Made by a program: the position numbers and the translations under genes. From assembly GCA_950022655.1 (NCBI GenBank), contig OX465584.1, forward strand, positions 56,657,789 to 56,721,788: a stretch of 64,000 bases of DNA, given 5' to 3'. Shown one piece after another: positions 1 through 56,788 of this stretch. This stretch comes from Alentia gelatinosa (lineage: Eukaryota > Annelida > Polychaeta > Phyllodocida > Polynoidae). Numbering within the stretch: position 1 is the stretch's first letter; each line of letters starts with the position of its first letter. Below the pieces are notes generated by a model, which saw only the letters and a list, made by a program, of their open reading frames with translations, ran no database searches and had not been told where the DNA came from.

Positions 1-814
1 ATCCATTGGTAACTGGACCCGCCACCTGGTGTTTTATTAAGTGTCGGGGGGCAAGATGGCAGCTTCCACGATACAATAGCTATGTGCCTGTGTTTTCCTT
101 GGCCTCACGATGCGGAGCTAAAGTTCTGAGTCATTGTGAGCAGTTGACAATGGAGTGTGAGCAGCTCAGAGCGGCGCGGGGAGCGCAGGAGCTGCTCACT
201 GGACCAGACTCGTCGGCGGAGCATGCACCGCAACAATACCATGACCCAGAAAAGAGCGCCGACAAAAGGCCTATACAGGGCCGGGCAAATAATGAGTGGT
301 TCCTGCCTGACCACAAACCAACCACAAGGGCTGGGCAGTCTTCTGTCACCCCTCTGAGGGGTTGGGGAGGAGGAGACGGGGGCCAGGGGGATTGGGGAAG
401 AAGGAGGGAGGGGTGGGTTGTCCCAGGCAGCACAGAGGTACCTACCGGCCTGCCATCACTGCCAATTCTTATCACACGTATAACCTCTGAAGAAAAAATA
501 ATTAAATCTTGGCTGGCAAGAGTCAATAGGCACGGAAAGGTATTGTGGGAAGGCCCGACCACAAAGCACGGCTTTTCATTGGTCGACACGGCCGATTGTG
601 CCTCCGCCTGTCGGCCACGGACGGAACTTGGCCGCAGCCCACCCCTCAGTATTGTGACTCCGGACAACGCATGCGCCGGGGATTCTTTCCCCGGACAATG
701 CGTATTGTCTCCCCGGACAATACGCGCTCCGGCGTCCCGTCACCATGGAGACGACGATTGTTGGTAGGTACTGGAGGAAGAAGAAGGAGAAGGACGGGGC
801 AGCCTTGGTGTTGG
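1..814. promoter_or_regulatory. CpG-containing promoter-like patch
   Basis: The patch holds a YY1-type site AAGATGGCAGC at 53-63, two GAGCWGCTC palindromes (159-167, 189-197) and an RFX X-box-like site GTCACCATGGAGAC at 739-752. Three near-identical CCCCGGACAAT segments lie between about 660 and 720. Open frames here run across CpG-rich DNA without coding-like composition, so I do not call a gene. The motifs fit a promoter or enhancer, but no TATA box or defined start can be fixed. Confidence 0.35.
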
Positions 815-890
815 TCACTCTCCTAGCAGATCTTTTGGGCGCTGGCGCTTACTAATCTCTGCCCCGACCTAAAGCTGGTTTCCCTGAGTA
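815..890 (+). repeat. Dispersed repeat, partial copy (GCAGATCTT...CTAATCTCTGC)
   Basis: The segment from CACTCTCCTAGCAGATCTT through CTAATCTCTGCCCC to AAAGCTGG is paralogous to 63904-63970 at the far end of the window, at roughly three quarters identity by eye. In that other copy the sequence continues into GGAGACACAGCAAGCGAGT, which is also found at 15270 inside an inverted-repeat element. This copy diverges after AAAGCTGG. Confidence 0.6.
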
Positions 891-1536
891 TCCACTGAAG
901 ACAGGGGAGACCAGCGTACATTTCAGATTCAAAACAAGCCAACTGTCAAAAGTTGTTGAAGCCAAACAACTCTGATATGAGTCTGATTTTATATGACAAA
1001 TAACAGAAATGGGTATAAATAATTTACCATATAATATGTTTTTATCTGTATATACATATAGAACCGTAAATACTGCCCAAAGCGCTAAAAATTTAGGATA
1101 TCTGAAAAACGGGCGGATGGGACAGATCTTGTCCCAAACAGGCTTGCAGACATTCAAGCGGCCGCAGAAAGTAGAGCGCAGGATGTCTGCTGGGAGAGTG
1201 GGTGTTGGTTGGTGAGGAGGTATCGGCGAGGGGCGGGGGTGAGGTTTGAAGTGTGGAGATATGCGGCTGAGGGCCCTCCTTGCCCGTGGTTGGCGCTGCT
1301 GGGTCTCTGTCCCCATGATAAAGCCCTTTCCTGGTGCCCTTGTCCTCCCAAACAAAGACCTCCGGTGGTGCACACCAGAGGACTGTTTCCTGGATCCTGC
1401 CCCCTCACCGGCACCCTCCACTAGGTCATCCGCTGTCCCAGGTCCCGAACACTTCCTCTACCATAGCTTTGAGTCAGCTTTCAGGGCCACAAAGGCCATT
1501 ATTCAGCGAAGAAGTCATAAACTTTCTGGCTGCACA
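891..1536. other. Interval without recognisable gene
   Basis: A mixed AT-rich (900-1100) then GC-richer (1150-1450) stretch. Short open frames exist on both strands but overlap each other and lack coding-like composition. I see no repeat copy here. Confidence 0.4.
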
Positions 1537-1605
1537 TAGACTTGCTCAAGACTTTGATTATGGACATAATTAAGATTATTAAGAAAATTATTTTGAAACA
1601 TTTTA
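1537..1605 (+). mobile_element. Truncated family-A hAT-like MITE
   Basis: It begins TAGACTTGCTCAAG and continues ACTTTGATTATGGACAT like the 5' end of the family-A MITE (intact copies at 42521 and 38436). It then decays into an AT-rich stretch and has no 3' terminus. Confidence 0.6.
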
Positions 1606-1672
1606 ACTTCCTCCAACGCCTGACAGGCCCAGAAATCAGTATCCATGCGAGGAGGGGTGAGGTAGGTTGAGG

Positions 1673-1695
1673 CAACGAGTCTCTATACTCGTTGG
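1673..1695 (+). repeat. Family-H 23-bp palindrome
   Basis: Half-site CAACGAGT, spacer CTCTAT, half-site ACTCGTTGG. The same 23 bases occur at 15490-15512 (same strand) and at 22863-22885 (opposite strand). The flanks of the three copies are unrelated. Confidence 0.85.
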
Positions 1696-1980
1696 TTGAG
1701 GGGAAGCCAGTCTAGGCAGCATACACTGGGCAGTGGTACAAGATGCGAGTATCTTACAATGGGACTTAAACAATAAACTCAGCATCTATGGTATGAAAAC
1801 AGACTTTTTGACCATCAACAGAAAAGTAGATTTTTCAAAGAGAGACAAACAATGGCTACTTACAATACGAAAGCTGTGGCGAATGAATGGCTCGACTTGG
1901 AACAAACCTAAACAAGTAGCTCTCAATGACTCAAGTCCTTGTGGCCGAGCACCTCACTTGTTGACCATGTGTCCAGGAGG

Positions 1981-1994
1981 GTTGCCATAGTAAC
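1981..1994. promoter_or_regulatory. RFX X-box-like site
   Basis: GTTGCCATAGTAAC matches the palindromic RFX X-box consensus (GTTNCC-AT-GGNAAC) except for one base in the right half. Five similar sites lie elsewhere in the window. Confidence 0.5.
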
Positions 1995-3590
1995 GGAGTG
2001 TCTTCAACGCGGCGTTGACAACCGCGTCCACCCCTGACCCATTAGGACTGTGCTAATGTCAGGTCCAGCCCCCCCCCTCCCATCCCACCCCCACCCCCTA
2101 CACCCTCCCCCTGGTGAGAGACGTCCACACTGACCACCCTCTTTTTATTAACCCTTGAGATTCCGCAGCTTCGGATTTTTCTATACTAATGTTCACATTT
2201 TCTCTGTGTATCACCGTTGATGTCATATACCGTATATATATATACCCTTAATTCACGGATAAGCTGTTCTATGGATCATAACGTATGAGCAGTCATTAGG
2301 AAACAGATTAACACATGGATCGTTGCCAAAAATCTAATGTCTGAAGAACTGTAAAGAACTGGTCTAAGATAATCCACATTTCCTCTGGTCGTCCTTATGC
2401 CTTACTTATGTAACAACCCCAATGGTACATACGAGGAGTAGGTTTGCGTATCTAGCGCAGGATGTATCGTATTTCGGTAGTTTCTCAGCTGTGGGAAAAT
2501 AATCCGTGACGTGGGAAATGAAGTAGACAATCCTTCCCATGCACCTCAACTCCCCATAAACAGCCGCCCCAACTCCTTTTCCTTTGTTCCCATACACATA
2601 CACCTTTGTCCACTCGCACTCCAGCACCAAGTCACCCCTCCTGGGTCTGTGAGTGTACATAAGAGGGAGGGGGTGGAGGGGCTGGTGGTTTGGGGTCTCC
2701 AGTAACCCGCGGGGGTGGGCTGGTACCCTCCTGGTTCCTCCTGCGAACCCGGCACCAGTCTAGAGAGACGCCGGCCACCAGGGTGAGCCACCAGGCAGCG
2801 TCTGGAGGAACGCAGACAAACAAACACGTCACAATGGGACGATCGGATGCGCAGCCCCCCAATGAAGCACCCTCACCCCCCTTACCCCCTCCTCACCCCT
2901 ACTACCGCATACCGCCAGCACTGCAGTGAGGGCTCGACTTACGGCGCAGTGCTTTCAAGTACCCGACGTTAGCTATGCGGCGCCAAGTGGGTATTAATCA
3001 CATTTTGTTACAAGATTGTTTACAATGCACATTTTCTCGTCTGTATGGGTTCAATGGACATCACCCATAATACACACTCAATTATGAGTATGGTTTTAAG
3101 CCAAGCCCAAAGGTACACTCTGGACCAATGCGTTGGCAATTGTTGATGGGCCCGATCACCTAGCTGTTTTAGTATCTAGATGTGGTTTTCAGTTCTTGCT
3201 GATATCGTCGACCGTTACTTTGGAAGAAAACTTAGTTTCAAACGCTTCACAAGGTTTTAATATTGACGATCTATAAAAAGTGAATTATGATTATGATCTA
3301 GTTATGATCTATTCAATCTGTATGCACAAGATATTCACAGATCGGTAATATCAGGATTGAGGCCTATCTAATCACAGTAAGAATATACCAATGGCAAAAT
3401 GTTGAAGTAAACCAGATTTGAAAAGGGGATTGACTTTAACCTGAGATATTGGTGTTCCCGATCTGTCATACAAATATTGAAATAAGAATCGTAAGTTTAA
3501 CCAATGATGGTAAATTATTCATCCCATGATTGTAAGTTTAGGTGATCCATACATGCCTGACGAGTTATGGTACAGTTATGGTACAGTCAG
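1995..3590. other. Interval without recognisable gene
   Basis: C-rich low-complexity DNA at 2070-2120, CpG-poor AT-rich DNA from 2940 to 3560, and short overlapping open frames at 2500-2930. A small direct repeat, GTTATGGTACA twice, lies at about 3563-3585. I see no element copy or convincing exon. Confidence 0.4.
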
Positions 3591-3594
3591 CACC

Positions 3595-3700
3595 CCATAG
3601 GGAGAGCTTTACGAGCTGCTCGGCCGAGCGGTTGTGAGCGGCGTGGAGTAACTCGACCCGCCCGGCGCGGGAGACAATGAAAGGTGACCCTGACGCGGTG
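3595..3700. promoter_or_regulatory. CpG-rich patch with a GAGCTGCTC palindrome
   Basis: The patch is dense in CG dinucleotides, with GAGCTGCTC at 3613-3621 and a degenerate partner (CGAGCGGTTGTGAGCG) just downstream. It is consistent with a small regulatory CpG island. No associated gene could be assigned. Confidence 0.35.
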
Positions 3701-4597
3701 GCGGGTAACAATGGTGTTAAGGGCGGGGACAGGGCTTAGAGTGGGGGCCAGGTAGGGGCGGACGGGGGAAGCCGGGGCCTGGAGAGGATCAAACGGAGGC
3801 CGCCGCCTAATGCTTAGTGTCGTCGGCGGGTAATTGAGAGAACACGCGTGGGTCAGGCCCGACACTTTACGCGGGAACGAAACAATTGTCGTCTGTTGTT
3901 ACAAAACTGGCAACGGGCCAAATTGCAAGGTCAATTCCTGCAGCTAAAACTGCTACTACATTGTTTTTCTTCCGGATTTGATTTGAATAGGTGAATTGGC
4001 ATTTGTAATGTGTATGTAAACAGTCGGAAGAAAAAAGGTTTCTTTCGATAGAAGTATATGCTTGTTTACCCATCATTTTGATGCCTCTTTTTCTGTAGAT
4101 ATCGTGATGCCACCCTCGGGCTCTTGTACTCATACAGCCAGGAATATTTGACCTTGGCAGGCGAGCAGACGACAATCAGCAATGACAGATCAAAAGCCGC
4201 TTCTTGTCGACAGAAATGGCGCCTCTCGCCGCAAATCTCGGCCAACGCGCGGAGCCGCGAGACCAGTGGCGACGCCCGTCGGCGGGTAGGCAATGTGACA
4301 AAAGTGACAGGCGGGGACAAGACAAGAGAAACCCGATCCAACGCGCCTGTTGTGATTTGGTCCCGTCGCCCTTTGTATCCTGACTTCCCTTGTCAGTTTT
4401 ATCAGAACGCCCGACAGCGCCTACCAGCCTCGTTCCCACCTCCATCTGTGGGCGCGTTCGTAAAACTGTGAGCACATACGTGGAGGTGACAGAATCTGTT
4501 TAGAGGTCACTGGAACCTCTGAGCTGCTCCACTGAGCAGTCACATCTTCCCCATCGTTTATATATCCACAAATTAACAATGACATCTGAAAATGCTC

Positions 4598-4776
<179 letters not shown>

Positions 4777-5616
4777 CCAAGCGCCATATATATTGACGAC
4801 TATAAAAAGGCAATTCCACACATAGCCAACCAAGATCTGCTACGATAACCAAGAAACAATGACCCCTGAAAATATACCCCACAGGAGGGGATTAGAACCA
4901 CATGTGTCGTTTAAAACAGAGGTGGGGGTATCAATACTGATTAAGGGGGGTGAGTGAGGGAGGGTATCATCTGGGGGATATCAACCGTCCCTGGTCCGCC
5001 CTGTCCCCGCTTTGTCTGGCCATTACAGGAAAGGGGCAAGACAACACCCTGACTGACCGCTCTAGGGGGTAATGGGGTGATGGGGTGGAGTACAGGGGTG
5101 TGCGAGTGGCATGGGCCATATGTTGACTACAGGGCAGACCAGATACCCCCAGGGACTGTGGTGAGACTGGGGGAGGGGTGGGGGTGGAGGAGAGTGGGTG
5201 CAACAGCTGGCTTCATTGTGGGAACATTTTACAGAAGCAGTCTACTCTGACAACCTGCAAAACACGGGACTTACTTCCGCTGTGATTTTTCTTCACCCAC
5301 ATTTTCCGAAATCAGGAAATGAAATCCCCATGGGTGGTGGATTTTTCCCATCCACTTGTACATCATGTCCTTATTCCGCCGACAAAGATTATAGTGACTT
5401 GGAAAGGTTCTCTCCAGACTGTGTTGTTAAGTACTAAGTAGATCTACGTTGTACATCTGGTCACTCAATCATTCTGGAATTGGTGCTAGCAAGAAGTCTT
5501 GATTGAAACTAGTGTTATTATGTGGGTTTTTATACATAAAAAGCCATCGAATAAGATAGACATGTTATGCCAGAGATCCATACTTGGTAACCCAGAGACG
5601 TATGTATCGCTGAATA
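4777..5616. other. Interval without recognisable gene
   Basis: G-rich purine-biased plus strand at 4920-5200 and an ordinary AT-balanced stretch after it. I see no repeat family or exon-like segment. Confidence 0.4.
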
Positions 5617-5618
5617 GA

Positions 5619-5707
5619 TAATTACCCGAGGTACTTACCTAGTACTGATGGGGAATTGATGTTCCTACGAGCCTAGGGACATTTTCATGAGCCCTAGGAT
5701 AACAGGG
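5619..5707 (+). mobile_element. Family-D ~90-bp hairpin element
   Basis: It starts ATTACCCGAGGTACTTACC, passes GGGGAATTGATGTTCCTACG and ends in the stem-loop GCCTAGGGAC...GAGCCCTAGG followed by ATAACAGGG. Other copies are at 12060 (+), 26519 (-), 31692 (-) and 33053 (-). Confidence 0.75.
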
Positions 5708-5970
5708 ATTTTGAAATTTTGTTGTTTAAGCAAAAAGTTGACCATTTTTGAAGGTATGTGTTGTACGATTTTTGGGTGTTTTCCCTGTGTGTCCTTGGGC
5801 ACTAAGAAAATAGTCCCTCGGTGAGTGGGAATTCGGTGATGTGTACGCAATGTTCCCTTGTGATGTGTAAACAAGAAGAAAAGAATGACGGATCTGCACA
5901 TGATGATAAGGCTTCATTCGACGTATATCTATATCTGACTGATTTCATATGATGCCATTTATATCATAAA

Positions 5971-6171: not shown

Positions 6172-6854
6172 CATTACTTACCTGAGACTTCGCCAGATAA
6201 GGTACAACTAACCACCAGAAGGCTGGAAGCCAATGTCCACTCTTCCCCAGTCCACTGTGGAGACCCTCTGTCCTTGGCTTCTGAGTAGCTCTGAGCATGG
6301 GTCCTTAGTTACTTATAATGGGCCTTGCTCGTCCACCCCTCGCCTTATAACCCCCACCACACAGACCCACACTGTTAAGACAGCGGGGTGGATCCCAGTG
6401 AGCGCCAGTCCTAAGTACAATATCCCTAATTGGCTGAATAAGCTCAAACGGTTGCGTCGGGCCTTTAACATGCATGGCATAATCACTTACAAGAAGAGGG
6501 TTTTTTTTCTTTTAATTCCTCGGGCCCCTGTGAGCCCGCCCTGCCCATGGTACATCAAAGTGTGTATAGGGCGTGGTCCTTTGCTCGATAGTGAGGGTTG
6601 GATGATTGGGGCACAAGACATGCTTTCCTACGAGCCCCCTTCCAGCCCCCACACGGGAACATGCCTCACCCCGCCGCCTACCGGACGACTGTGAAGTCTT
6701 TACGTGGACTCATTTTCTTTCGGTCAGCAAAGCTGCGCGCGCACATCATTAGCTCGCATCAAAAACAAATACTGTCCGTGCATGCTGTGGTTGGTGCCCC
6801 CTCCCTCCCACCTTCTCTCCCGCACACCCCACGCCCACTCCTTATGTCTTACCT

Positions 6855-7061
6855 CTAGACTTGCTCAAGTCTGTGATTATGAACATTCATTGAATGGTTA
6901 AACAGAATCAGAATAAAGTTCATTATAGTATGTATGCATCCTTCTCTGACTGCCCCATGAATCAAAGACTTGTCCAGTAGGAACAGAACCTCCTGTTTAT
7001 GCCCCCCTGTATCCCAGCTAGGAGGGTAGCCATATAGGATGCAGGGACTGGAGCCGGTCTA
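6855..7061 (+). mobile_element. Family-A hAT-like MITE, near full length
   Basis: Termini CTAGACTTGCTCAAG and GGAGCCGGTCTA. The flanks TCTTACCT and TCTTACCC match at 7 of 8 bases, which fits the 8-bp target duplication of hAT elements. The interior carries the family landmarks: AACATTCATTGAATG, CCTTCTCTGACTG, ATGAATCAAAGACTTGTCC and GGATGCAGGGACTGG. Confidence 0.85.
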
Positions 7062-7263
7062 TCTTACCCCCACCATGCGGAGCCACAGTAGCGTGCCCCC
7101 CACCCCCACCCCCACCGCCCAGTCACGACGGAGAAATCAAAACAAAACCGGAAGAACATAAACAGCCATTAAAACGACGTCATCACTGAGTAGGGGACGC
7201 TGTCTTCAAACGCGGCTCTGGCGTCTTGACCGCGTCCTTTTTCAGCGTCCATCAGACGCCAAG

Positions 7264-12601: not shown

Positions 12602-12610
12602 GAGCAGCTC
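12602..12610. promoter_or_regulatory. GAGCWGCTC palindrome
   Basis: A single GAGCAGCTC copy in ordinary-composition DNA, followed 30 bp later by GCATTGTGGG, a ZNF143-like half motif. Confidence 0.5.
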
Positions 12611-13841: not shown

Positions 13842-13973
13842 GAGCAGCTCAGAGCACCTACACTTCTATCAGGATTACAGCCTTTGTATATAATGCATGA
13901 CAACGGATGTGCGGCAGGAGAGGTCCGTCCGGTGGCGGGGGCGGCGGGGGGGGTGACTACTTCTGAGCTGCTC
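13842..13973. promoter_or_regulatory. Pair of GAGCWGCTC palindromes
   Basis: TGAGCAGCTCA at 13841 and TGAGCTGCTCA at 13964 bracket a G-rich patch. Both extend to an 11-bp palindrome by the flanking T/A pair. Confidence 0.5.
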
Positions 13974-16599: not shown

Positions 16600-16980
16600 G
16601 ATGATGGCGGTCGGCAGGCACGCGGCGGCGTTCACCCGGGGTGAGCGCGCGGACGCGGGGCGGGGCGCACGGGCGCACGGACCGAGTGGCCGGCCCTGCC
16701 CGGCGCCGACAACAAAGCTGGCCGCCGCTTCAAAGCGTCCGAGTCAACGGGGTACGAAATGAACAAGAGACGCAGATTAATCAAAAGAAGGGCTATTCAG
16801 TTTACTGAGCAGCTCGTTCCCTGGCCCGCCCGCCCGCCCGCCGCCCGCTGGACCGGCTCGGCGGCTGCGGGCGGCCGGGCAACAGGGACACGAGCCCCGG
16901 CGACTGACCGCGCGGAAGGAGCGGGCAGCGTGCAGGCAGAACATCTCCCCATTGGTTTTAATATTCCGCCGGCCGCCTCT
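16600..16980. promoter_or_regulatory. CpG island
   Basis: Very CG-dense DNA with a GAGCAGCTC palindrome at 16807-16815. Overlapping open frames on both strands are Pro/Arg/Ala-rich and look compositional. A promoter or first-exon region is likely, but its orientation cannot be told. Confidence 0.45.
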
Positions 16981-17339: not shown

Positions 17340-18050
17340 GGTGGGCTGGTGCCCTCATTGCACGCAGAACCCGGGCCGAGCAGTTCCGAGCGGCTCCGAG
17401 CTGCTCCGAGCGGCTCGTGTCATTAGCGCAGTGTCCTACTTGAGTTCATGAGTAACTCACAGTCGTGTGACAGTCAGTGGCCCGTGAAAGGGTTCTCCTT
17501 GTATTGCCTGCACCCACCTCCCACCCCCTTCTCCTCCTTCCACACACACCACCCCGCTCAACACACACACACACCCCAATGTCTCACCCAGTCATCTGTG
17601 TTCTCCACACCACCCCACCAGCTGTAGCCTACCCCCCGTGAAGCCAACCCCAGTGCGTACTCCCCCTTCGCGCCCTGAATATTGAATATTAAGGACAAAG
17701 GACGTTAATTAAGTCAAACAATAGAGTCCAGGGAGATGTGGTGGGTTGAGGGGGAGGGCGGTGCGAGGGGCAGCGGGTACCGGGGCGCGGGTGCAGGCGT
17801 GCCGTCACACAAGGCCCCAGCGCCCGGCCCCTGTGATGGAATGCCCGGCCGCCCGTGCTCGGAGCTGCTCGGCCGGGCGGGGTGAGCTGGTCGGCCCCGG
17901 CACACGGCCCGCCGCCACCGACCCGCCGCATTCTCCTCACACAAGCAGCCTTTGATCACAAAAGGGCGCGGGGCAGGCAAAGAAAGGCCCGATCACGTCT
18001 GCGGACTGCGGTCAGGGCCGGCGATTGATAGGCTGATCTGCCCACCGCCC
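17340..18050. promoter_or_regulatory. CpG-rich region with a four-unit GAG-N3-CTC array
   Basis: Four 10-bp units, GAGCAGTTCC, GAGCGGCTCC, GAGCTGCTCC and GAGCGGCTCG, run head to tail from 17378 to 17417. Another GAGCTGCTC lies at 17862-17870 inside a denser CpG island (17750-17940). The exact 10-bp phasing suggests repeated sites on one helical face. Confidence 0.5.
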
Positions 18051-20100: not shown

Positions 20101-21080
20101 GTGAACAGTGTGCTGGTGTTCCCGGGAGTGTAGCCGTTGTTTTGCCGGGAGCCGGAGCCGTGTGGTGCCGGCGGCCGCTGTCGATGGTCCGTGCCGCTCC
20201 TCACTCACTGGCTCGACTCACTGGAGAAGGAGGGGTGGATTGAGCTGCTCCAACCCTTGCTGCCTCCCGCTGCTGGAGCTGCTCCTCTTGTCCGCGGCGC
20301 CTCACGCTTCTGGGCTACCTACTGGAGGACGGCGCGGGCCGGTAGGGGGAGCCAGCGGGCGGAGGCGGGGCCCAGCGGCGCAGGAGGAGTAGCAGGAGGA
20401 CGCATGCAGGCAGTGAGCAGCTCGGGGGAGAGGGGGAAGCCACAGACCGGAGTCGTGGAGCAACTCAGGCCGTTATGAGAGCGTGCGACGGCCGCCACCC
20501 ACCACGTACACAACACCGCTTCTCCAGGGGGTCAGTGATGCCTCCTTCTACTGCTCCGTGAGTCACTCAGGTGGCTGTGAGCAGCTCGACCCGCTGACAC
20601 CAGGCGAAGTACCGCTTACAGGAGGATAACAGGTGATAATGGTGTACAGAACCCGGCGTGGTACTTTGGTGGTACTGTGGTACTGTCCCCGTCGCCGTTA
20701 GATCCGCGCCCGCCGCCCGTAGCGAGCTGCTGCGACTCCTCCTCCGTCCTCGAGTCGCTCTGAGCAGCTCTGAGCAGCTCTCTGGGCAGCTTTGCCTGCC
20801 GCGCCGACCCGCGCCGCGCCCGCAACAACGCGTCACAACCGCGTGAGTCAAAAGCACGCGCGCGGCACGACCAGCCCGCACTGTGCTGTGAGGGGCGGCG
20901 AGAGTACAGGGCGGCAGCGTGGAGTCCCCCACAGCCACCGCACACACAGTGAGTGGCCCAGTAGAAGTCGTCACACTCCAGTATTACTCAGAGCCTTGTG
21001 TCTCTTACTATTGTTGTTGGTGGTGGTGATAGAGGCCCGTATGGACGCGTCCGGTGTGGTGGCGAGTTGGGGATAAGGTA
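20100..21080. promoter_or_regulatory. Large CpG island, densest GAGCWGCTC cluster
   Basis: Roughly 1 kb of CG-dense DNA carrying exact GAGCWGCTC at 20242, 20276, 20415, 20579, 20762 and 20772. A three-unit 10-bp array starts with the variant GAGTCGCTC at 20752. Further variants GAGCAACTC and GAGTCACTC also occur. Open frames here are compositional on both strands. This is the strongest candidate promoter/enhancer block of the first third of the window. Confidence 0.5.
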
Positions 21081-21322: not shown

Positions 21323-21331
21323 GAGCTGCTC
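21323..21331. promoter_or_regulatory. GAGCWGCTC palindrome
   Basis: GTGAGCTGCTCAC, extended to a 13-bp perfect odd palindrome. A variant GAGTAGCTC lies 20 bp downstream. Confidence 0.5.
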
Positions 21332-21792: not shown

Positions 21793-21801
21793 GAGCTGCT
21801 C
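21793..21801. promoter_or_regulatory. GAGCWGCTC palindrome
   Basis: TTGAGCTGCTCAG, an isolated exact copy 60 bp after the family-C2 element. Confidence 0.5.
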
Positions 21802-23851: not shown

Positions 23852-24169
23852 CCCATCTCGTCCACCGCGAAATTGGAAATGGCCACAGGTCACATGACCC
23901 AGAAAATGGACGCTGTGCTGGCTGTGCCAACAAGTCGCCGCCCTCCCTCCCCTCCTGCTGTCCTCCAGTGATTCTCCTCCATGGTAGACACGGCTTCCTA
24001 GACACACTCCTCCTGGGTTGCCCGCAGAGCCCTGGCCCGTCCTCCAATTATACACAGAGTGCCCCCTTGTCAGACGAGGCAACACAAAGCGAGCAGCTGT
24101 TGGCCCAGGTCGTTACTGATTCTACTCCTCTGCCACCAGGTGGGAGTGCGGTGAGAGGAGGGACGGGGT

Positions 24170-24300
24170 GTGACTTGCTCAAGTCTTGGATTATGAACAT
24201 TCAATAAAATTTAACGCTTAATCAGGAAGACATGCATAATAATAAGTAGCCTTTCCATGACCGGTCCAGGAATCTAATTATCAAAGTAAAGAGGGGCTGA
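24170..24300 (+). mobile_element. Family-A MITE, diverged copy
   Basis: Starts TGACTTGCTCAAGTCTTGGA, then AACATTCAATAAAATT, GCCTTTCC and GACCGGTCCAGGAATC. It belongs to a diverged sublineage shared with the next copy and lacks a clear 3' terminus. Confidence 0.7.
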
Positions 24301-24301
24301 G

Positions 24302-24425
24302 TTAGACTTGCTCAAGTCTTTGATTTTGAACATTCAATGAATTCTAGCACTAAATCTGGAAGAAATGCATAAGTAGCCTTTCCCTGACCGGTCCAGGAAT
24401 CAAATTATCAGGTCGAAGAGGGAAG
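24302..24425 (+). mobile_element. Family-A MITE, diverged copy
   Basis: TTAGACTTGCTCAAGTCTTTG, AACATTCAATGAATTC, GCCTTTCCCTGACCGGTCC. It is the closest relative of 24170-24300, so the two probably arose by local duplication. Confidence 0.7.
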
Positions 24426-24603
24426 GAGTCTTTGATTATGAACGTTCATTAAATGATCAAAGACGATCAGAATGAAGTTCATTATAGTATGAATCCTTCT
24501 CTGACTGGCCCATGAATCAAAAACTTGCCCACTATGAACAGAATCTCCTGTTAGGAGGTGGAGGGATAGGCATAACATGGATACACGGACTGAAGCCAAT
24601 CTA
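24426..24603 (+). mobile_element. Family-A MITE, 5'-truncated
   Basis: Begins inside the family at AGTCTTTGATTATGAACG and runs through CCTTCTCTGACTGGCCCATG to GACTGAAGCCAATCTA. Confidence 0.75.
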
Positions 24604-24656
24604 GGAGGGAGTGTGTGTTGGGGATAGGGAGGGGGTGGGCAGTGGTAGGAGGAAGG

Positions 24657-24820
24657 TTGGACTTGCTCAAATCTTTGATTATGGACATTCATTAAATGAT
24701 TAATCACAATCAGAATTAAGTTCATTTAAGTATGTATCCTTCTCTGACTGGCCCATGAATCAAAAACTTGTATCCCACCGAGGAAGGTAGCCATAGGATG
24801 CAGGGACTGGCACCAGTCTA
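24657..24820 (+). mobile_element. Family-A hAT-like MITE with perfect TSD
   Basis: The termini TTGGACTTGCTCAAA and GGCACCAGTCTA are flanked on both sides by GAGGAAGG (24649-24656 and 24821-24828), a perfect 8-bp target duplication. This identifies hAT-type integration. Confidence 0.92.
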
Positions 24821-24949
24821 GAGGAAGGTATACGTGTGCAGAGAGGGGTAGTGGGGTATGATGTCAGAGCAGGAGCAGTCAGACCCAACCACAAATCCCA
24901 CTAACCGGCCGACGACGAATGGCCCCGCCCTGCAAAGGTGTGCAAAAGT

Positions 24950-28951: not shown

Positions 28952-29380
28952 TGAGGCGGGTGAGGAGGATAGGCTGTGGTTAAGGCGCCGGTGTATTGTT
29001 TCGCACTCTTCATGCACATACTTAGTGAGTAACTCATTCCGTGTGGGACTGACTCAAGGAGCTGCTCGTGGCCGAGTCTCCGGGAGGCTCAGTCTTTTGT
29101 TGAGAGTCCTACTTCATCGGGGAGTGCCTCTGTATACCAGGCATACTTTTACTTCCATCTAAAAGTATTGTCCAGTTGCTTTTGTCTCCCACACTAAGAT
29201 GAGAATAAAAGAGAGCTGCCATCCATGTTCAAATAATCATTATTGTATTGATCTTTACCCTGTACATTGTATATACAATTGGGAACTTCACGTTGTTTTT
29301 AAAAAAAGTCGAAAAAAACTGGGGCCTGTTTAATAACCTAGGATCGTGCATGAAGACCCTTATATCGAAACGAGTTGGTT
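28952..29380. other. Interval with a GAGCTGCTC site, no gene
   Basis: GAGCTGCTC at 29059-29067, with a GAGTAACTC variant 45 bp upstream. Otherwise unremarkable DNA. Confidence 0.4.
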
Positions 29381-29819: not shown

Positions 29820-30075
29820 GCAGTATAATGAGCTGCTCGGAGCTGCTCGTCCCGTGTCTATGTCTCCTTCTCTCTCAGCCTCACGCCCGGACTTCACGGG
29901 GAGCCCATTGCCTGTCGTCACAGCAACCAAGGAGCAGCTCGCAACCAAAAATAACCAACAAGAGCTGCTCAGAGCTGCTCGTCCAACAACAGCGGGCGGC
30001 GGGAGCGAGTGGCCGCCGGGACAACGGGAGGCGGGGCCCGGGTGAGGAGGGCGGGCGGCCGGGGTCGACAGGGGG
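29820..30075. promoter_or_regulatory. CpG island with five GAGCWGCTC palindromes
   Basis: Exact copies at 29830, 29840, 29932, 29962 and 29972. Two pairs are tandem at 10-bp spacing. The second half (29990-30070) is CG-dense. A promoter/enhancer role is inferred from the motif density. Confidence 0.5.
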
Positions 30076-31290: not shown

Positions 31291-31294
31291 AACA

Positions 31295-31312
31295 GAGCAG
31301 CTCGGAGCAGTT
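31295..31312. promoter_or_regulatory. GAGCAGCTC with a phased variant
   Basis: GAGCAGCTC is followed exactly 10 bp later by GAGCAGTTC, another instance of the 10-bp phased arrangement. Confidence 0.5.
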
Positions 31313-31691
31313 CGCCCACCCTCCCCCGCTAAGATCTGACCCCTGTGACCCCTGTACGCCGGAGGGTGCGGGGTATAAATACACCGCCGTGACCACTAAC
31401 ACCTCGCCCTTTCTTCTCCACCTATCCCTCCTGTCCACACCTCCAACACAAGTCCTTCTTTTATTGTCCCCCGTTTCATATTGTAACCTTTCACTTTTGA
31501 CTGGGATTGATTGTCTTCGGTTCCACTGGCCTATATATTTCTTTATTTATTTAGATTTTTACAAATGTTCTTCCAACGCATTGTAGACTTATCATGAGTA
31601 ACTGGATAACATTTCATGGTATTTACAATGGTATGATATTCTATGTAGCATTCACTACATATAACTGTGAGTTCTAACTCGCCTTGGGGAA

Positions 31692-33183: not shown

Positions 33184-33216
33184 TGACGTCATCTGGACGG
33201 AGGTTTGGAGCTGCTC
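33184..33216. promoter_or_regulatory. CRE palindrome plus GAGCTGCTC
   Basis: A perfect CREB/ATF site TGACGTCA (33184-33191) lies 17 bp upstream of GAGCTGCTC (33208-33216). The following GC-rich 33240-33350 could be a 5' exon in either of two frames. Confidence 0.5.
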
Positions 33217-38405: not shown

Positions 38406-38435
38406 TGTAGGTAGCTGCTAGCCTTTGCCTCACCC

Positions 38436-38586
38436 CTAGACTTGCTCAAGTCTTTGATTATGAACATTCATTAAATCAGAATGAAGTTCAATAGTATATA
38501 TATCCTTCTCTGACTAGCCCATGAGTCCCTGTATCCCAACCAGGAGGGTAGCCATAGCATAGGATGCAGGGACTGGAGCTAGTCTA
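38436..38586 (+). mobile_element. Family-A hAT-like MITE with perfect TSD
   Basis: CTAGACTTGCTCAAG...GGAGCTAGTCTA, flanked by CCTCACCC at 38428-38435 and 38587-38594. It lacks the ATGAATCAAAGACTTGTCC module, which makes it a 151-bp short form. Confidence 0.93.
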
Positions 38587-38705
38587 CCTCACCCCATGCC
38601 CCGACACACACCATGGAGGGGTTATGGGGTGCTCACACGGGGTGTTTACCATTAATCTCTCCAGTGCCAGGAAGTACAGCATGCACATGGCCCTCAGTCC
38701 CCCGA

Positions 38706-39844: not shown

Positions 39845-40392
39845 CTGACATGGGAGATTCCTAGAAATGTGTGCTCATAGTTGCTTACATAGCACATGCC
39901 CCGAAATCGCCTAGTGGAAATCGGGCATTAGAGACATGGGATATTCCAAGAAATTTCTGCTCATAGTCGCCGACTGAAGCCCCGTACAGGGCATGAGATC
40001 GGCTCGTGGTCATCGGGCATTAGGGACATAGGAGACTCCCACATATGTGTGCTCCTAGTTGCAAACTGAAGCCCCACAAATGCCATTAAAATCGCCTAGT
40101 GGGAATCAGGCATTAGGGACATGGGAGATTCCTACAAATTTCTGCTGATAGTTGCCGACTGAAGCCTCACACATAACATAAAATCGCCCAGTGGGAATCG
40201 GGCAAGAGGACAATGGGAGATCCCTAGGAATGTGTGCTCATAGTCGCCAACTGGTGCCCCACACATGCCATTAAAATCGCCTAGTGGGAATCAGCCATTG
40301 GCAACATGGGAGATTCCTACAAATTTCTGCTCATAGTCGCCGACTGAAGCCCTACACATACCATAAAATCGCCCAGTGGGAATTGGGCATAA
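39845..40392 (+). repeat. ~92-bp tandem repeat with alternating monomers
   Basis: Six units begin near 39848, 39935, 40027, 40119, 40214 and 40304 at CATGGGAGATTCC. Two monomer types alternate. One has AATGTGTGCTC and ATGCCATTAAAATCGCCTAG; the other has AATTTCTGCTC and CATAAAATCGCCCAG. This gives a dimeric higher-order unit of about 185 bp. A single related monomer lies at 57238-57325 on the minus strand. Confidence 0.92.
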
Positions 40393-45678: not shown

Positions 45679-45862
45679 TGGCGGGAGCTGGAGGGAAGGC
45701 CCCCCGATCCTGGACACCGGCCAGTCACACTCCCCGCCGGCCGCCCGCGTGGAGGAACACTCCGGCGGCTACGACAGGCTGCAGGAGGAACACATCACAA
45801 ACTCCTCCAAACAATTCCCGGGAAAACATGACAACATCTCAAAGCTAATCACCAAGGCATGA
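45679..45862 (+). CDS. Candidate terminal coding exon, 60 codons
   Basis: After a pyrimidine-rich tract and acceptor GACTATGCAG (AG at 45677-45678), one base completes a split codon. Then 60 codons run uninterrupted to TGA at 45860-45862. The peptide begins GGSWREGPPILDTGQSHSPP, continues through RVEEHSGGYDRLQEEHITNS and ends SKLITKA. Third positions are strongly G/C, the residue mix is hydrophilic and balanced, and no low-complexity run explains the openness. It reads like a cytoplasmic or disordered C-terminal tail. No family is recognised. The stop codon overlaps a GAGCTGCTC palindrome (45861-45869). Upstream exons could not be linked with confidence; 33614-33730 and 43588-43755 lie on the same strand. 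Confidence 0.5.
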
Positions 45863-45869
45863 GCTGCTC

Positions 45870-50086: not shown

Positions 50087-50150
50087 TAATATTTCGGTAT
50101 TTTCATAAACCTTACTTCGCCAATTTTTTTTAACCTGGACAGGGTAGACC

Positions 50151-50314
50151 ATAGACTTGCTCGAGTCTTTGATTATGAACATTCACTAAATGATTAATCA
50201 CAACCAGAATAAAGTTCATAAAAGTATACATGTATCCTTCTCTGACTGGCCCATTACTTGCTTGTATCCCAGCAAGGAGGGTAGCCATAGGGTGCAGGGA
50301 CTGGAGCCAGTCTA
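50151..50314 (+). mobile_element. Family-A hAT-like MITE
   Basis: ATAGACTTGCTCGAG...GGAGCCAGTCTA with flanks GGTAGACC and GGTATACC (7 of 8). Confidence 0.9.
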
Positions 50315-50329
50315 GGTATACCATTGTTC

Positions 50330-52555
50330 AATATCTTTTATTAGATTCTAACCGTTGGAGAGAACATAATAGAGAGAGATTTCAATAATTTAACATATGT
50401 TATGCAAGCTCACCGACCCAACCAGAGCCAATCATTACTGTTTTTTATATTTTACTCAAAGGCAAATTTTTACACCAGTGTTTCATACGAAAGGTAAATC
50501 AGAAACACTTCATGGTTTATCAGTGATTCTTGAAACGTCTTCAGGTATCGGAGAAACATTAGGTAAAATCATCTCTTGAGGCCACCATAGATTCTAGTCA
50601 CAATTCGCGCACTTGGTTTACAGATCTAACCCTCATGTTGATAGTTCACTCACGATGGACATTCGTTGACCCAGATCTGTCTTTTCAGGGCCCATCTCAG
50701 CCAATCAAATCCGTCGACACAAGTCGTTTAGGCAGATGTGATTGTTAATGGCCGCTTCCGGTGCTGACCCGTGCCGCCCCCTACCGGCACAATGCCTCGT
50801 AATCAAACGCTGCCCAAAATACCGCCGGCTCCCTACCCGTTTCAACATATGTTGTGGATTAACTCCAGTACCCTTCAACCCCCTCGCCTCACCCCCTACC
50901 TCCACAATCGCCCTTTTCGCTGATCTGAGCCTTGATATGCGTTTATTCACAACATTTGTCTTACTCCTTCCAAAAGCTCTCCACATAATACACCAGAGAG
51001 GAGATTGTGGTCACAGCCGATTCGTGAACGTCGTTCGTGTCTGTTTGAAACACAGAACCTAGAACCGGTAAACAGGAACTTGAAAGGCATCTGTAGCGAG
51101 CTACCTGTCTCTACGCAGTTGTCTTGAGTTTACATTGATGAGAATTGATGAAGAAACCATCAACACAGGTCAGATTCAGAGCGAGGCCAGCCGACTGAGA
51201 CGCTACCTCTGGCAGCCACGGTCAAGGTCAGTCAGTCCCAGGGGTCAGGAGGTCACGGTGGCGTCCCCTGGTGAGTGAGCGGGCACCTAAGGATTATCAC
51301 TACTCTCCAAGCATATATGTTCCCTATAGAGCATATACATTGTAATAGAGAGCGGTTCAAGCCTGTGGTTGGAGACTGGACGGGATTATCTGAGGCTGAG
51401 CGGGTGGTGGGCGCAAGAAAACAACAACTGGATTAGCTAAGACCCGTTGGTATGGAAACGGAGGGACAGCGCCTATCTCCAGCCCCAGGGATGCGAGGTC
51501 AACTGACACTACAAAGGACCATATGGCGATGACTGAGGGGTGAATATATTTAAATCCAAGAGTAGCTCACTCCCACCGGACTGTCCATCCTGCTCAATAT
51601 ATATGTATATGGAGAGTGTGTTATGCTTTCCTGCCCTGTTGTTATCCTTGTAGACAGGGTGCATTAAGTGCACGTGGAATAGTTGTACGGTTTCTCCAAA
51701 AGAGTGGTATTCTTTGGATATTTCTGTATGATCAAATGATGTTATGGATCGTGTATATATACTACATATAGGGGTTATTTGAACTTTGTAATAGGCAAAG
51801 CCATGAAAACCAATTGCCGAGTCAATTGAGGCTAATGCCCCTTTAGCGGGTTGTTAGAACTTCAGATCCTTAAATGAGAACCGGTTTGATCAATTGATTT
51901 ATGTATTAATGAAAGACCCAATAAAGAAATCGATAAAAAATAGTAGTGTAGTTTAGTTGTAAATACTGGAGATTGTGCCAACATACAATATCACGATACA
52001 ATGTTGGAATTGTTGATGATAATTCAAAATGGCTTCATATTATGAATAAGATTCCCAATCACCTTACCTCATTGTAAGCAATGGATATGATTATTGCAAA
52101 TCAAAGGATAACTCTATTAAAACTTTATACGATAATTAAGCACACAAAAAAATGTCCGAGGCGAATACATAATAGAAAGCAGTAGGGTTAGCTGAGCCAC
52201 AATCTCCCATCAATCATTCGCTAACCACTCGTCACTGAGGGACACATCTCAGTCTCTACCTCACTCCATTTTTCTACATTTCTTTCTGCTGCTACCGGTG
52301 AGTATAGAGGAGTACTTGTTGGTGCGACGAGGCCTAATTTCAATGGACTGGGTGGTATTTGTGTGTGGTATTTTTTCTGCTTCTCCTGACAGATGTCATC
52401 TACTCTAGGTACTAAAGTAGGTTGTGCTTCTCTATTCTGGTGTAAAGCCACGCTAACTCGTTGGCCACACACATACAAGCACATATACAGACACACGCAC
52501 ATAGGTGACCTAACATTTGAAGATTACTTGTATATTAGACGACCGATCACGCAGA
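50330..52555. other. Interval without recognisable gene
   Basis: AT-rich with a GC-richer patch at 50740-50920. An X-box-like GTTGGTATGGAAAC lies at 51446-51459. A degraded family-H motif (GGTGAGTATAGAGGAGTACT) lies at 52288-52318. Short open frames only. Confidence 0.4.
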
Positions 52556-52559
52556 GAAA

Positions 52560-52920
52560 GGTACTTCATTTTACTATATACCCATGCCGTATATACTGTA
52601 AATACGCACCGTTTCGGTATATGACGTAAAAGTACTGTACGGACCAGTGGTCCGTACACCAAAATACAGACTACCTACCCAAACACATTTATTAAAGTCT
52701 TGGTTGTTAAGAAAAATGAAATTGATTTTTTTTTAAAATTTCGGGTATATAATAAATATATAACGTCCAACCATGCTTGTACAAGTCACAGAACTCGATG
52801 ACAATTTACGGTTTGTACCGAACTCGGCGTAAACGCCTCGGTCCGTACAAACCGTAAATGAGCATCTCGATCTGTGACTTGTACAGCATGGTCAGGACGT
52901 TCTATATAAATATCTAATGT
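52560..52920 (-). mobile_element. Family-E hairpin element, copy 2
   Basis: Reverse complement of 22450-22825 over essentially the whole length: TATACCCATGCCGTATATAC, GTACGGACCAGTGGTCCGTAC, then the hairpin 52772-52908 with arms CTTGTACAAGTCACAGAACT and GATCTGTGACTTGTACAGCA. Confidence 0.9.
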
Positions 52921-52924
52921 TATC

Positions 52925-53485
52925 CCAATTTTATCCAATATACCCTCAGAAACAGTGTCAGTCATTTTGAGAGAAATTCAAACTCACTCAGTTTGGTGGC
53001 AGCCTGTTATGGAAATCATCTCGAACTCACCTATGAACAAAAAGAAGGAACATGATTAGTTATAGATAAATAACATTAATAATGTCAATGTACCAGACAA
53101 CTGCTACAGATCCCTTAATTAGCTACATTGTACCGGGGACATGTACATTGTGGCAAGTCAGAATCTCCGGGAAAAAAGTCCCATCCAAAATTAGATCAAA
53201 TCATCATATGCTTCAAAATAAGTTTATCTAATATTCGTTCAATATTAATCATTTTAAATCAGTCATATTACTCTCATTTACCATCAGAACTCACTGTCAT
53301 AAAATGTTTTGCACACTAAAACCCCGAAAAAATAGAGAATTATATACTATTGTAAGTATACACCAGATTACCACCATGCCTGACAGTGCTGTGCCATTAG
53401 GGCGTGATCTTGAAATACAAGTCTTCCAAGAAACTTTATGTTCCAATATACTTGTTATAATTAATGTAAGTGGATTATACAATAC
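52925..53485. other. Interval without recognisable gene
   Basis: AT-rich; open frame 53304-53513 (+) runs into a tandem repeat and is not convincing. Confidence 0.35.
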
Positions 53486-53490
53486 TACTG

Positions 53491-53680
53491 GTTTTGTGTA
53501 CGATTTCCTGTAATCACTTTGTAGTTCACGCGTAGCAATATACTCGCATTCACTCGGGTATTACTTCGCATCAAATACAATAACGACTGGTTTTGTGTAA
53601 CAGTTCCTGTAATCACCTCGTAGTCTAATATCCTCACATTCTTTCGGATATTACTTCGCATCAACTACTCGGATATTACG
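53491..53680 (+). repeat. 99-bp tandem duplication
   Basis: GTTTTGTGTA...TTCCTGTAATCAC begins at 53491 and 53590. Each copy contains TCGGRTATTACTTCGCATCAA. Confidence 0.9.
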
Positions 53681-54059
53681 GCCACTCGCACACAATACCA
53701 ATCATTCTTGTGTATATAAACAACGATGTTAGTACTATACTCGTTTATATAAACGATGGCTTACTCTGAGTGAGGTAACACCACCACACCACAGCCTCCA
53801 CCCGTTCTCTAATGTTGAGCGTTTAACTTGGATCTACCACTGTCAGTGAGCACACCCTCCCCTATGGTGCTCACCCCGTGCCTTGCCCAATTTTCGTGCT
53901 GGGTTTCTATGCTGCGGCCAGGCGCCAAGGACCAGGATGAAAGCCACAACAACACAAAACAAGGCGGACTGGACTTGGCAGACGACACTGCCTATTCTCC
54001 CCTCACTCTCCCCTCACTCTCCCCCCGCCCCTTCTCCCCGTATCTATTTTCCATTATTT

Positions 54060-54200
54060 CCGGTGCGGCGCGTGCGCCTGCGCGTTGAGCATGCGCGGTA
54101 GGGTGTACCGGAACGCCGCCGCCGCCGCCGCGTCCACTGCCAGAACGAGGCAAACTGGCCGCCATTGTGGTCCTTCCCGGTTCGTTCTCCAAGCACAAAC
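54060..54200. promoter_or_regulatory. CpG-rich promoter-like patch with NRF1, ETS and YY1 sites
   Basis: NRF1-type GCGTGCGCCTGCGC and GAGCATGCGCGG (54069-54097), ETS-type CCGGAA (54109) and TTTCCGG, a (CCG)n run, and the YY1 motif GGCCGCCATTGTGG (54157-54170). On the minus strand the YY1 site contains an ATG (54165) opening MAASLPRSGSGRGGGGG, a plausible but unproven N-terminus. A family-A MITE abuts the patch at 54208. Confidence 0.45.
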
Positions 54201-54207
54201 CTGGACG

Positions 54208-54492
54208 TAGACTGGCTCCAGTGCATACATCCTACGGCTATCCCTCCACCTACCTCACCCCTCCATGCTGGGATACAGTCAGAAGGAAACATACTATAAT
54301 GAACTGTATTCTGATTGCGTTGAATCATTTAATGAATGTTCATAATCAAAGACTTGAGGAAGTCTGCCCCTCCATCTACCTTACCCCTTCTCGCTGGAAC
54401 CATGCAGTGGTTAGGCAAGGATGCATTTTATAATGAACTTTATTCTGAATCATATAATGAATGTTCATAATCAAAGACTTGAGCAAGTCTAT
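54208..54492 (-). mobile_element. Composite of two family-A MITEs within one TSD
   Basis: The outer termini TAGACTGGCTCCAGTG and CTTGAGCAAGTCTAT are flanked by CCTGGACG on both sides (54200-54207, 54493-54500), a perfect TSD. Inside, a second copy of the 5' terminal module (CAAAGACTTGAGGAAGTC) ends near 54366 and a second partial body follows. Tandem duplication within the element, or mobilisation as a dimer, would explain this. Confidence 0.88.
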
Positions 54493-54589
54493 CCTGGACG
54501 TCCTCTTTTCCCCTGGAGTTGTAACTTAGTGTGTTTTTTTGGGAAACGCTTGGAGAGTGAAGGATGATAGTTAGAATGCACTGGGTTGA

Positions 54590-54596
54590 TGTGTGT

Positions 54597-54627
<31 letters not shown>

Positions 54628-54752
54628 TACCCAGCGCTACATACCATTGTTAGCGTCGTGCCTTGTAGGTCTGCACTGCACCTACCCCCCATGCCTCCCC
54701 CTCCCCTCCCCCAACCCTGCCCTGACACTACCCTCCCCCCCCCCCCCCCCCA
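54590..54752 (+). repeat. (TG)n with poly-G 17 and poly-C 17
   Basis: (TG)n leads into G17 at 54611-54627, and C17 lies at 54735-54751. The two tracts could pair as a long inverted repeat with a 107-bp loop. Confidence 0.9.
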
Positions 54753-54759
54753 CCCACCA

Positions 54760-55700
54760 TCACCGTGATGCAGGGTGCCCTTGCTCACCACCCAAACGGA
54801 CTCGACGTGAAAATGCGACTTTAAATATTGCAGTGGCGCGGCGAAAGAAAAGTCGGGAACATTGGGTGGCGACAAAGGTACAGTCAAGCCGACTAGATGA
54901 TAGACATCGATCGGCCGCCAGACGGGCACAATGGTAAAAAGGGCATTATTTAGCGCCATCAGTGAAATTATTTATACAGGAATCAGCCCGGAGTCTCCCC
55001 TACAAGCACCTTTTACTTCACTTTGAGAGCCGCAGTCAGGAAATGAATTGCTCCCGGTCTCGGCATAAATGTGTCCACTGCGCAGCCGCCACGCGCACGT
55101 CCGGGGGAGGTATAGGTGGCGCTGGCGTCGGAATGGGACGCGCGGTGATAGGAGCGTCCCATGACGGGTAATGTTCAGTGCGCATGCGTGGGGGGTCCCT
55201 GTAGGAAATACCTGCTTATTATGAGGAGGTGACCTCTGGCCGGCCTGCGCCCCTCCCGGTACCTCACCTCTAACCCCGCCCTGATGCATTGTTTAGCTAT
55301 CATATCAGTTCCCTTTCATTATTCATCATTTCATTAGCCTCTTTGGCACGAGCCACTGACCACCTCTGAATTCCCGCGCATCGCCAGCGCCCCCTTAGCG
55401 GTGGCGGCGCTAACTAACCGGATAACCTGTCCACACCCAAATAACCTTGCCGCGCCAGTGCCCCCTCAGCGCGCGCCCGCCTGCCTGCCACCAGGGGAGC
55501 GGTGGTAGATCATCCCGCCCCACAAACGCCCGTCAAGACAAACCCCACTTTGGTGTAAATCTACGACGACGTTGACCACTCCTTACGACCCCCTGAGCCA
55601 CAGCAGCGAGGTGCCCGCCTATAACCTCCTTTACATTTTTGTAAGGTACCCTAAAAGTCTGTCGGTGGTACCACGGACTGTATGGCAGTATCAATATGCG
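54760..55700. other. CG-containing interval, promoter-like motifs, no gene called
   Basis: NRF1 palindrome TGCGCATGCG at 55179-55188 and CG-rich DNA at 55080-55160 and 55370-55520. Open frames on both strands, not coding-like enough to call. Confidence 0.4.
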
Positions 55701-55711
55701 TGGTATCTGTT

Positions 55712-55892
55712 GTTATCCTACCCCGCATATAAATCTCCATAGACTTAACATGGTGTGACTGTATGCCCCGGTTATGCCATAAAATATGTATATGCCACTG
55801 GTAAAATATGAAGTTAAAAACATGTGAAAGGGTAGGATGAAATCTAAACATCACTCAATTTCATATGAAATTTCGTGATGTTTCATGATAGT
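55712..55892 (+). mobile_element. Family-B element, hairpin collapsed
   Basis: TTATCCTACCCCGCATATAA...GGGTAGGATGAAATCTAAAC, then only the short palindrome ATTTCATATGAAAT plus CGTGATGTTTC. The body is intact but the hairpin middle is deleted. Confidence 0.8.
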
Positions 55893-55899
55893 ATTAGTT

Positions 55900-56755
55900 T
55901 TCCCTCACTTTTCAATATGTAAGTGTCACGACCTATTGTAATCAATAGATTTTTGTCAAATGCAATCTTGATAAGCCAGTCATCCTCCGATTACGTTTAT
56001 TAAACAATATTTACCGTGGATCGTCCCTGAGGTTCCCCATCGCTTCATAGGTCGTATCGTCCAGTCTAATTACCGTTTGTAGATCATTAAAAAAGCCCCT
56101 GTTCATAATACTAGGCATTACTTGTGCTTCATTGTCACATGGCGAAGATACTGATCGTGTCTGGTGAGTTCACTACGCAACCAATATGCATGGTGTAGTT
56201 TAAAGTTCTACGGTTCTTCATGCAGTTCATGAATACCATATTATATGAAATAGCATCAATGCAACCTTTATCAAAGGATATTGAAATTCTAGATATAGGT
56301 GCATGTATTGTTCTCTGTTGATATGATGAGTTTAGAACGGCTTCTCGGAAATTGCAACGTATTTTAAAATAATTGAAAAATTCCTGAGGGTTAGGATTAT
56401 ATATAAGCCAATTGAATATTTCAAAACTGTAGTTCGACGATGATGAAAGATATATATTACCAGCCTATTTTGTCCCATAAATGTTGACTTCAGTCGGCCA
56501 GGACAGTGAGAGAACTTGTCAACCATATCAAAGGAAAGCTAATCATGGCAGAACCTGCCAGTGCTGTCATCGTCTTATCAACTGTTAGAGTGGACATCAG
56601 AAAATCTAGGTCAACTTCAGCTTCATTCCGTCTTGACTTCATCACGATTCGGACGCTGACCTCTCACTCTCCCAGCAGAGGCGTCCCGGCCCCGCACCCT
56701 TCATATCCCAAGGGTCTTGTCCGAGGCCAGGCTGTGGCCATTAATCTCAGCCCGG
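55900..56755. other. Interval without recognisable gene
   Basis: AT-rich; open frame 56506-56781 (+) runs into the GAGCAGCTC array and has no recognisable domain. Confidence 0.35.
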
Positions 56756-56759
56756 CTCT

Positions 56760-56788
56760 GAGCAGCTCTGAGCAGCTCTGAGCAGCTC
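56760..56788. promoter_or_regulatory. Three GAGCAGCTC palindromes at exact 10-bp spacing
   Basis: GAGCAGCTC at 56760, 56770 and 56780, each separated by a single T. The cleanest phased array in the window. Confidence 0.6.

Follow-up and report, generated by a model that had tools for sequence, protein, structure and literature searches.

GAGCWGCTC, a palindrome abundant in the genome of the annelid Alentia gelatinosa, is a candidate site of a dimeric DNA-binding protein

Main

Why should a single 9-bp palindrome occur 30 times in 64 kb of annelid DNA? The question is raised by a stretch of 64,000 nucleotides from the polynoid Alentia gelatinosa (assembly GCA_950022655.1, contig OX465584.1; C6:56657789-56721788, hereafter the window), in which an initial annotation, made from the letters alone, noticed an excess of GAGCWGCTC (W, A or T). 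Here we report that this signal is real, strong and genome-wide, and that it is more complex than the annotation had it, the same 9-mer being present both in single-copy DNA and in tandem arrays of unlike construction. Outside a handful of animal groups, little is known of regulatory or architectural motifs that are specific to one lineage, and in annelids a palindrome of 9 bp present about 56,000 times would offer a direct biochemical route to such a factor.

GAGCWGCTC is the most enriched palindrome of its class in the window

All 30 positions at which GAGCWGCTC had been annotated proved exact, and no additional copy was found anywhere in the window (centre base A in 13, T in 17). The expectation was 0.24 by 100 dinucleotide shuffles (maximum in any shuffle, 2), 0.26 by a local 2-kb dinucleotide model, and 0.55, 1.03 and 3.79 by third-, fourth- and fifth-order Markov models, the last of which already holds most of the word itself. 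The enrichment, initially put at 60-fold, is a fair figure, as it amounts to about 55–125-fold against the shuffles, the local dinucleotide model and the third-order model. Among all 256 palindromes with a W centre, GAGCWGCTC ranks first in the window (30 observed, 0.23 expected). The runner-up among the non-AT words, GCTCWGAGC (n = 11), is the everted arrangement of the same element and takes second place because neighbouring half-sites often recur in 5-bp steps.

The geometry of the site is narrowly set. Within the window, GAGC and GCTC are separated by a gap of 1 in 32 cases, by gaps of 2 and 3 in one case each and never by a gap of 0; the 11 cases with a gap of 11 are an echo of the 10-bp tandem arrangement described below. 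The centre is W in 30 cases versus S (C or G) in 2. A flanking T...A, extending the site to TGAGCWGCTCA, shows a modest bias, although at 7 of the 30 copies the initial ‘often’ was too strong a word. One-mismatch relatives are also common in the window, including GAGTWGCTC (9) and GAACTGCTC (5), and transitions at the third and fourth bases of the GAGC half-site may be tolerated.

The excess is genome-wide and patchy

Counting over the whole genome (1,234,393,884 bp, 101 contigs) yielded 55,778 copies of GAGCWGCTC. Markov models of orders 1–3, trained on 140 kb (14 position-chosen 10-kb stretches), gave expectations of 3,835, 4,167 and 4,827, corresponding to an 11.6–14.5-fold excess. The reversed control word was counted 2,805 times against 1,721–2,195 from the same models, and calibration on this control leaves an excess of about 9-fold. 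The count is thus far above expectation, and the outcome that the initial annotation had named as fatal to its proposal, a genome-wide number near expectation, did not occur. The S-centred word GAGCSGCTC is present in 6,884 copies (reversed control, 5,076), so that W:S is 8.1:1 where composition predicts 2.0:1 (order 1) or 2.4:1 (order 3); the net W-centre preference after composition is about 3.4–4-fold, and S-centre words contain CpG.

Copies are unevenly spread. The window is a local hot spot, with 469 copies per Mb versus a genome mean of 45 per Mb; the 10 kb before it contain 3 copies and the 10 kb after it none, and nearby 10-kb stretches at 56.3, 56.6, 56.8 and 57.1 Mb contain 0, 1, 0 and 0. 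On contig C1, among the matches listed, 16 copies fall in the first 3.35 Mb, roughly the chance rate, and 68 in the following 0.45 Mb. It is the count over all contigs that establishes the genome-wide excess, and hot domains carry it.

The same 9-mer stands alone and in unlike tandem arrays

According to the initial annotation, the copies are not embedded in a larger repeat. This stood for 18 of the 30 window copies, whereas the other 12 lie inside seven short tracts with a 10-bp period, spanning 20–44 bp each (Table 1). For the 18 copies outside tracts, independent 9-mers are a better description than relics of arrays. The tandem side of the element had been missed altogether and reaches beyond the window, where arrays exceed 1 kb (loci L008, L026 and L027). 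Head-to-tail units, the mark of a minisatellite, are present in these arrays and at the 12 tract copies, and absent from the remaining 18. Genome-wide, 2,600 pairs of copies stand exactly 10 bp apart and 9,834 are separated by a gap of 0–30 bases; the reversed control gives 0 and 2.

Table 1. Copies of GAGCWGCTC and 10-bp-period tracts in the window
Position	Feature	Remarks
159..167	copy outside tracts	
189..197	copy outside tracts	30 bp after the copy at 159
3612..3655	degenerate 10-bp-period tract	one exact copy, 3613-3621
4521..4529	copy outside tracts	
12602..12610	copy outside tracts	
13842..13850	copy outside tracts	third half-site GAGC at +10
13965..13973	copy outside tracts	
16807..16815	copy outside tracts	
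17376..17417	10-bp-period tract	GAGCAGTTC, GAGCGGCTC, exact GAGCTGCTC at 17398, GAGCGGCTC
17862..17870	copy in 17-bp segment, not scored as tract	third half-site GCTC at -5
20242..20250	copy outside tracts	GC-rich cluster, 20.2-21.8 kb
20276..20284	copy outside tracts	GC-rich cluster, 20.2-21.8 kb
20415..20423	copy outside tracts	GC-rich cluster, 20.2-21.8 kb
20579..20587	copy outside tracts	GC-rich cluster, 20.2-21.8 kb
20751..20794	10-bp-period tract	GAGTCGCTC, then exact copies at 20762 and 20772
21323..21331	copy outside tracts	GC-rich cluster, 20.2-21.8 kb
21793..21801	copy outside tracts	GC-rich cluster, 20.2-21.8 kb
29059..29067	copy outside tracts	
29830..29849	exact pair, 10-bp spacing	copies at 29830 and 29840
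29932..29940	copy outside tracts	30 bp before the pair at 29962
29962..29981	exact pair, 10-bp spacing	copies at 29962 and 29972
31293..31314	10-bp-register tract	exact copy at 31295, then GAGCAGTTC
33208..33216	copy outside tracts	
45861..45869	copy outside tracts	
56753..56788	exact triple, 10-bp spacing	copies at 56760, 56770 and 56780

The array loci were picked from lists of matches such as that of the pairs with a gap of 0–30 bases, whose first 100 places all lie on C1 between 3.4 and 4.7 Mb, and their mix of periods is no genome-wide estimate. Units of 10 bp build the arrays at L008, L026 and L027, the tenth base varying between arrays. A 12-bp spacing comes in two kinds, GAGCTGCTCTGT at L005, where a large part of the array is made of the variant unit GAGCTGTACTGT, and GAGCAGCTCACA at L046, which also has a 19-bp unit. 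The L047 array has 14- and 22-bp units with a ATAGAGATAG-type spacer, and longer periods of 55 bp (L027), 56–58 bp (L030) and 66 bp (L007) are also found. Because periods and spacers are unlike and the 9-mer is common to all, what recurs is the 9-mer and not one repeat unit. Among the matches listed, an array at C1:4721309-4721701 has recurrent S-centred GAGCSGCTC, often at 30-bp steps, contrary to the W-centre rule.

A candidate site of a dimeric or multimeric protein

A site that has two-fold symmetry, a fixed gap and a preferred A/T at the dyad, and that is found in single-copy DNA as well as in unlike arrays, resembles the site of a dimeric protein. We therefore tentatively read GAGCWGCTC as the site of a putative DNA-binding protein that acts as a dimer or multimer, the tandem amplification being secondary, and give this reading a little less than an even chance. 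The dimeric factor proposed in the initial annotation has gained from the centre-base preference, from the gap specificity in the window and from the occurrence of one palindrome in unlike arrays, although the factor itself is putative. A chromatin-boundary or recombination role and an expansion in this lineage, also raised at the outset, gained no support. Two features expected of a lineage-specific architectural or promoter motif, genome-wide excess and presence in single-copy DNA, were found for GAGCWGCTC; from the sequence pattern we infer protein binding, a dimeric state and a promoter or architectural role.

Under such a reading, an abundant sequence-specific protein would bind as a dimer in which each subunit contacts one GAGC half and A/T is preferred at the dyad, and it could form higher multimers along half-sites that alternate in 5-bp steps (GAGC-N-GCTC-N-GAGC). 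Its sites would accumulate in GC-richer, mostly single-copy DNA, and close-set sites would be amplified by local tandem duplication into minisatellites, mostly with a 10-bp period, which would set them on one face of the helix. A bolder version, which we regard as speculative and unlikely in its entirety, is that a putative multimeric protein of the annelid lineage reads alternating GAGC half-sites every 5 bp, that its site spread through single-copy DNA and independently joined many unlike minisatellites, and that binding, or breakage at bound sites, is coupled to the birth of tandem repeats genome-wide. That one palindrome is present in unlike minisatellites also opens to experiment the question of whether tandem repeats can be seeded by a bound site.

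A number of observations weigh against a protein-binding site. The S-centred word is itself 2.7–3.6-fold over Markov expectation, so the W-centre preference is only relative, and the part of the W:S ratio that composition explains slightly weakens this reading and slightly raises an origin in tandem-repeat formation. In 18 position-chosen 10-kb stretches (180 kb), 4 copies were found versus 0.56 expected, and in that sample GAGCWGCTC is level with three further palindromes of the same GC class. A third half-site at the 10-bp offset beside the 18 non-tract copies is weak (7 of 36 with at least 3 of 4 matches versus a 6% baseline), its p of 0.006 holding for a single offset when 51 were examined and offsets 22 and 43 reach 6. 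In the arrays, the spacer base falls below the arm mean in conservation in 10 of 13 tracts, often slightly (arms 0.55–0.87, spacer 0.44–0.93), in a comparison biased by an alignment profile that favoured the arms when registering array units; the centre base shows no conservation trend. With so small a difference between spacer and arms, the arrays may be no more than tandem repeats in decay. In the window alone, 8 of the 30 copies have an inter-locus repeat no more than 100 bp away, versus 34% of all bases examined; a statement that copies avoid repeats was dropped on this account and because tandem tracts had been masked, and its loss likewise shifts the balance slightly towards an origin in tandem-repeat formation.

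The genomic setting adds further points on that side. The CpG-rich, promoter-like surroundings initially described were borne out for GC content at the 22 copy clusters of the window (0.54 versus 0.46; 0 of 5,000 random draws as high) and for CpG per kb (53 versus 36; GC-matched, 48), but the observed/expected ratio of CpG is not raised (0.71 versus 0.68, p = 0.26). A Pfam search of 150 of the 162 filtered open reading frames (ORFs) of at least 80 amino acids and 150 of the 187 of 58–79 amino acids revealed no convincing family; the sole matches, PRIMA1 (E = 0.0028) and Mpo1-like (E = 0.0093), were taken as chance. As no gene was recognised in the window, the copies could not be placed at start sites, and a promoter role is a guess.

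Alternative explanations

The main rival, which we consider rather unlikely, dispenses with a protein: the palindrome would either result from the formation of tandem repeats or set it off, as a sequence at which breakage or template switching readily occurs or as a minisatellite seed scattered over the genome, and it would expand locally and then decay to single copies. Long decaying arrays at L006, L007, L008, L026 and L027, all picked from lists, are what this would produce, as are the close-set pairs that the reversed control nearly lacks; neighbours at 10 bp, moreover, mostly share their centre base as duplicates would (5 of 5 window pairs; all but two among the matches listed). This explanation is nevertheless weakened by the 18 window copies outside tracts, which carry at most a faint 10-bp echo where a decayed array would leave neighbours, and by the unlike spacers of arrays that share the 9-mer, which go beyond slippage alone. 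In addition, a decamer tract was found in none of the sixteen 10-kb stretches L009–L024, though L009, L014 and L015 have copies. GAGCWGCTC could also be a motif of meiotic recombination or of break sites, directed by a PRDM9-like factor or a nuclease, with an activity that would mark the motif and at the same time cause minisatellites to grow locally. The patchy density, as on C1, and the strong link of copies with minisatellites would fit such an origin, but recombination motifs of this kind are expected to erode rather than accumulate, and we consider it improbable.

We find it highly improbable that a transposon or other dispersed repeat family carries the copies. Confinement to one such family had been named at the outset as a way for the initial proposal to fail, yet the 9,952 bp of repeats found within the window contain none of the 30 copies, where their area would predict about 4.7. 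In a comparison with 284 kb (the window plus the loci), 24 copies match nothing and 6 match solely through the tandem unit. There is little on the other side. Once tandem tracts are masked, an inter-locus repeat lies no more than 100 bp away from 26 of the 228 fetched copies, versus 34% of all bases, a comparison biased by the inclusion of loci chosen for arrays and by the fact that masked arrays cannot match; a single exception among the fetched copies, L003:2227, lies inside such a repeat. Least credible of all is a compositional or coding artefact, which could draw on the clustering in GC-richer DNA but must contend with the expectation under local composition, with the gap and centre preferences, and with the lack of a convincing protein family in the 300 ORFs searched. 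An artefact of CpG islands was considered and dropped.

Comparison with known systems

Several familiar elements share part of this layout. The p53-family response element consists of RRRCWWGYYY repeated, and the half-sites described here fit RRRC/GYYY and form a palindrome with a 10-bp period. This candidate was rejected because the CWWG core is replaced by a single-base C-W-G core (in the window, GAGCNNGCTC occurs once versus 32 times for GAGCNGCTC). The heat-shock element, made of alternating nGAAn units, is similar in its alternating inverted 5-bp units and multimer-like arrangement; it was likewise rejected, since all 30 copies have GAGC arms and GAAC arms are confined to 6 one-mismatch relatives. 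An E-box does not apply, as there is no CANNTG within GAGCAGCTC or GAGCTGCTC. The CTCF motif is long and non-palindromic, unlike the short palindrome GAGCWGCTC. In the annelid Dimorphilus gyrociliatus, CTCF accounts for the abundant open-chromatin motif (PMC7854359).

A closer precedent for lineage-specific factors comes from ctenophores, in which the lineage-specific zinc-finger proteins CTEP1 and CTEP2 read a GC-rich motif common at promoters and enhancers; that motif includes two CpGs and was identified at loop anchors with the help of chromatin data (PMC12221973). GAGCWGCTC resembles it in being a short, widespread and putatively lineage-restricted motif, and differs in being a CpG-free, W-centred and tandem-amplified palindrome, recognised here from sequence. 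The MNS16A minisatellite carries GATA1 sites in its units (PMC5438627). Both cases have minisatellite units that carry a binding site (a putative one for GAGCWGCTC), but MNS16A concerns one locus, whereas here unlike minisatellites at many loci share one palindrome. Among the papers listed by a literature search for the motif string, none was seen to describe it as an element; papers pairing the string with a mention of palindromes were taken from the listing as incidental.

Other features of the window and genome

Dispersed repeats of the window lie at 6840-7070, 24142-24821, 38422-38595, 50149-50320 and 54242-54495, among others, with up to 11 within-window matches per stretch. The enriched words GACTTGCTCAA and GACT-6-AGTC may derive from them, as may a 133-bp tandem repeat at 24172-24410. 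A minisatellite at 60744-61604 consists of about 45 copies of 20-bp units (CACCACACCCCCACCCCTCA), with strong strand asymmetry over 60–62 kb (GC skew -0.51), and a tandem array at 39893-40390 has 92- and 185-bp periods with 2.6–5.4 copies. Searches of the window gave no Rfam match at the gathering threshold and no tRNA by ARAGORN, and a search of viral contigs for the triple decamer gave 0 matches.

Elsewhere in the genome, 127 homeodomain matches were found, with a run of them on the minus strand of C14:7542280-9406341 that is perhaps a Hox cluster extending over nearly 2 Mb. Contig C101 (15,368 bp) is mitochondrial, with COX1 open under the invertebrate code and 20 tRNAs identified by ARAGORN. 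Its order, with tRNAs placed by ARAGORN and proteins by eye, is F-E-P-T-..-C-G-M-..-V-..-L(tag)-A-S(tga)-nad1-I-..-S(tct)-nad2-cox1-N-cox2-D-Y-cox3-Q-..-cob-L(taa)-W-..-H-nad5, which fits the annelid ground order, except that two tRNA genes have moved: tRNA-Gly stands between Cys and Met, and tRNA-Leu(taa) has cob and Trp as its neighbours.

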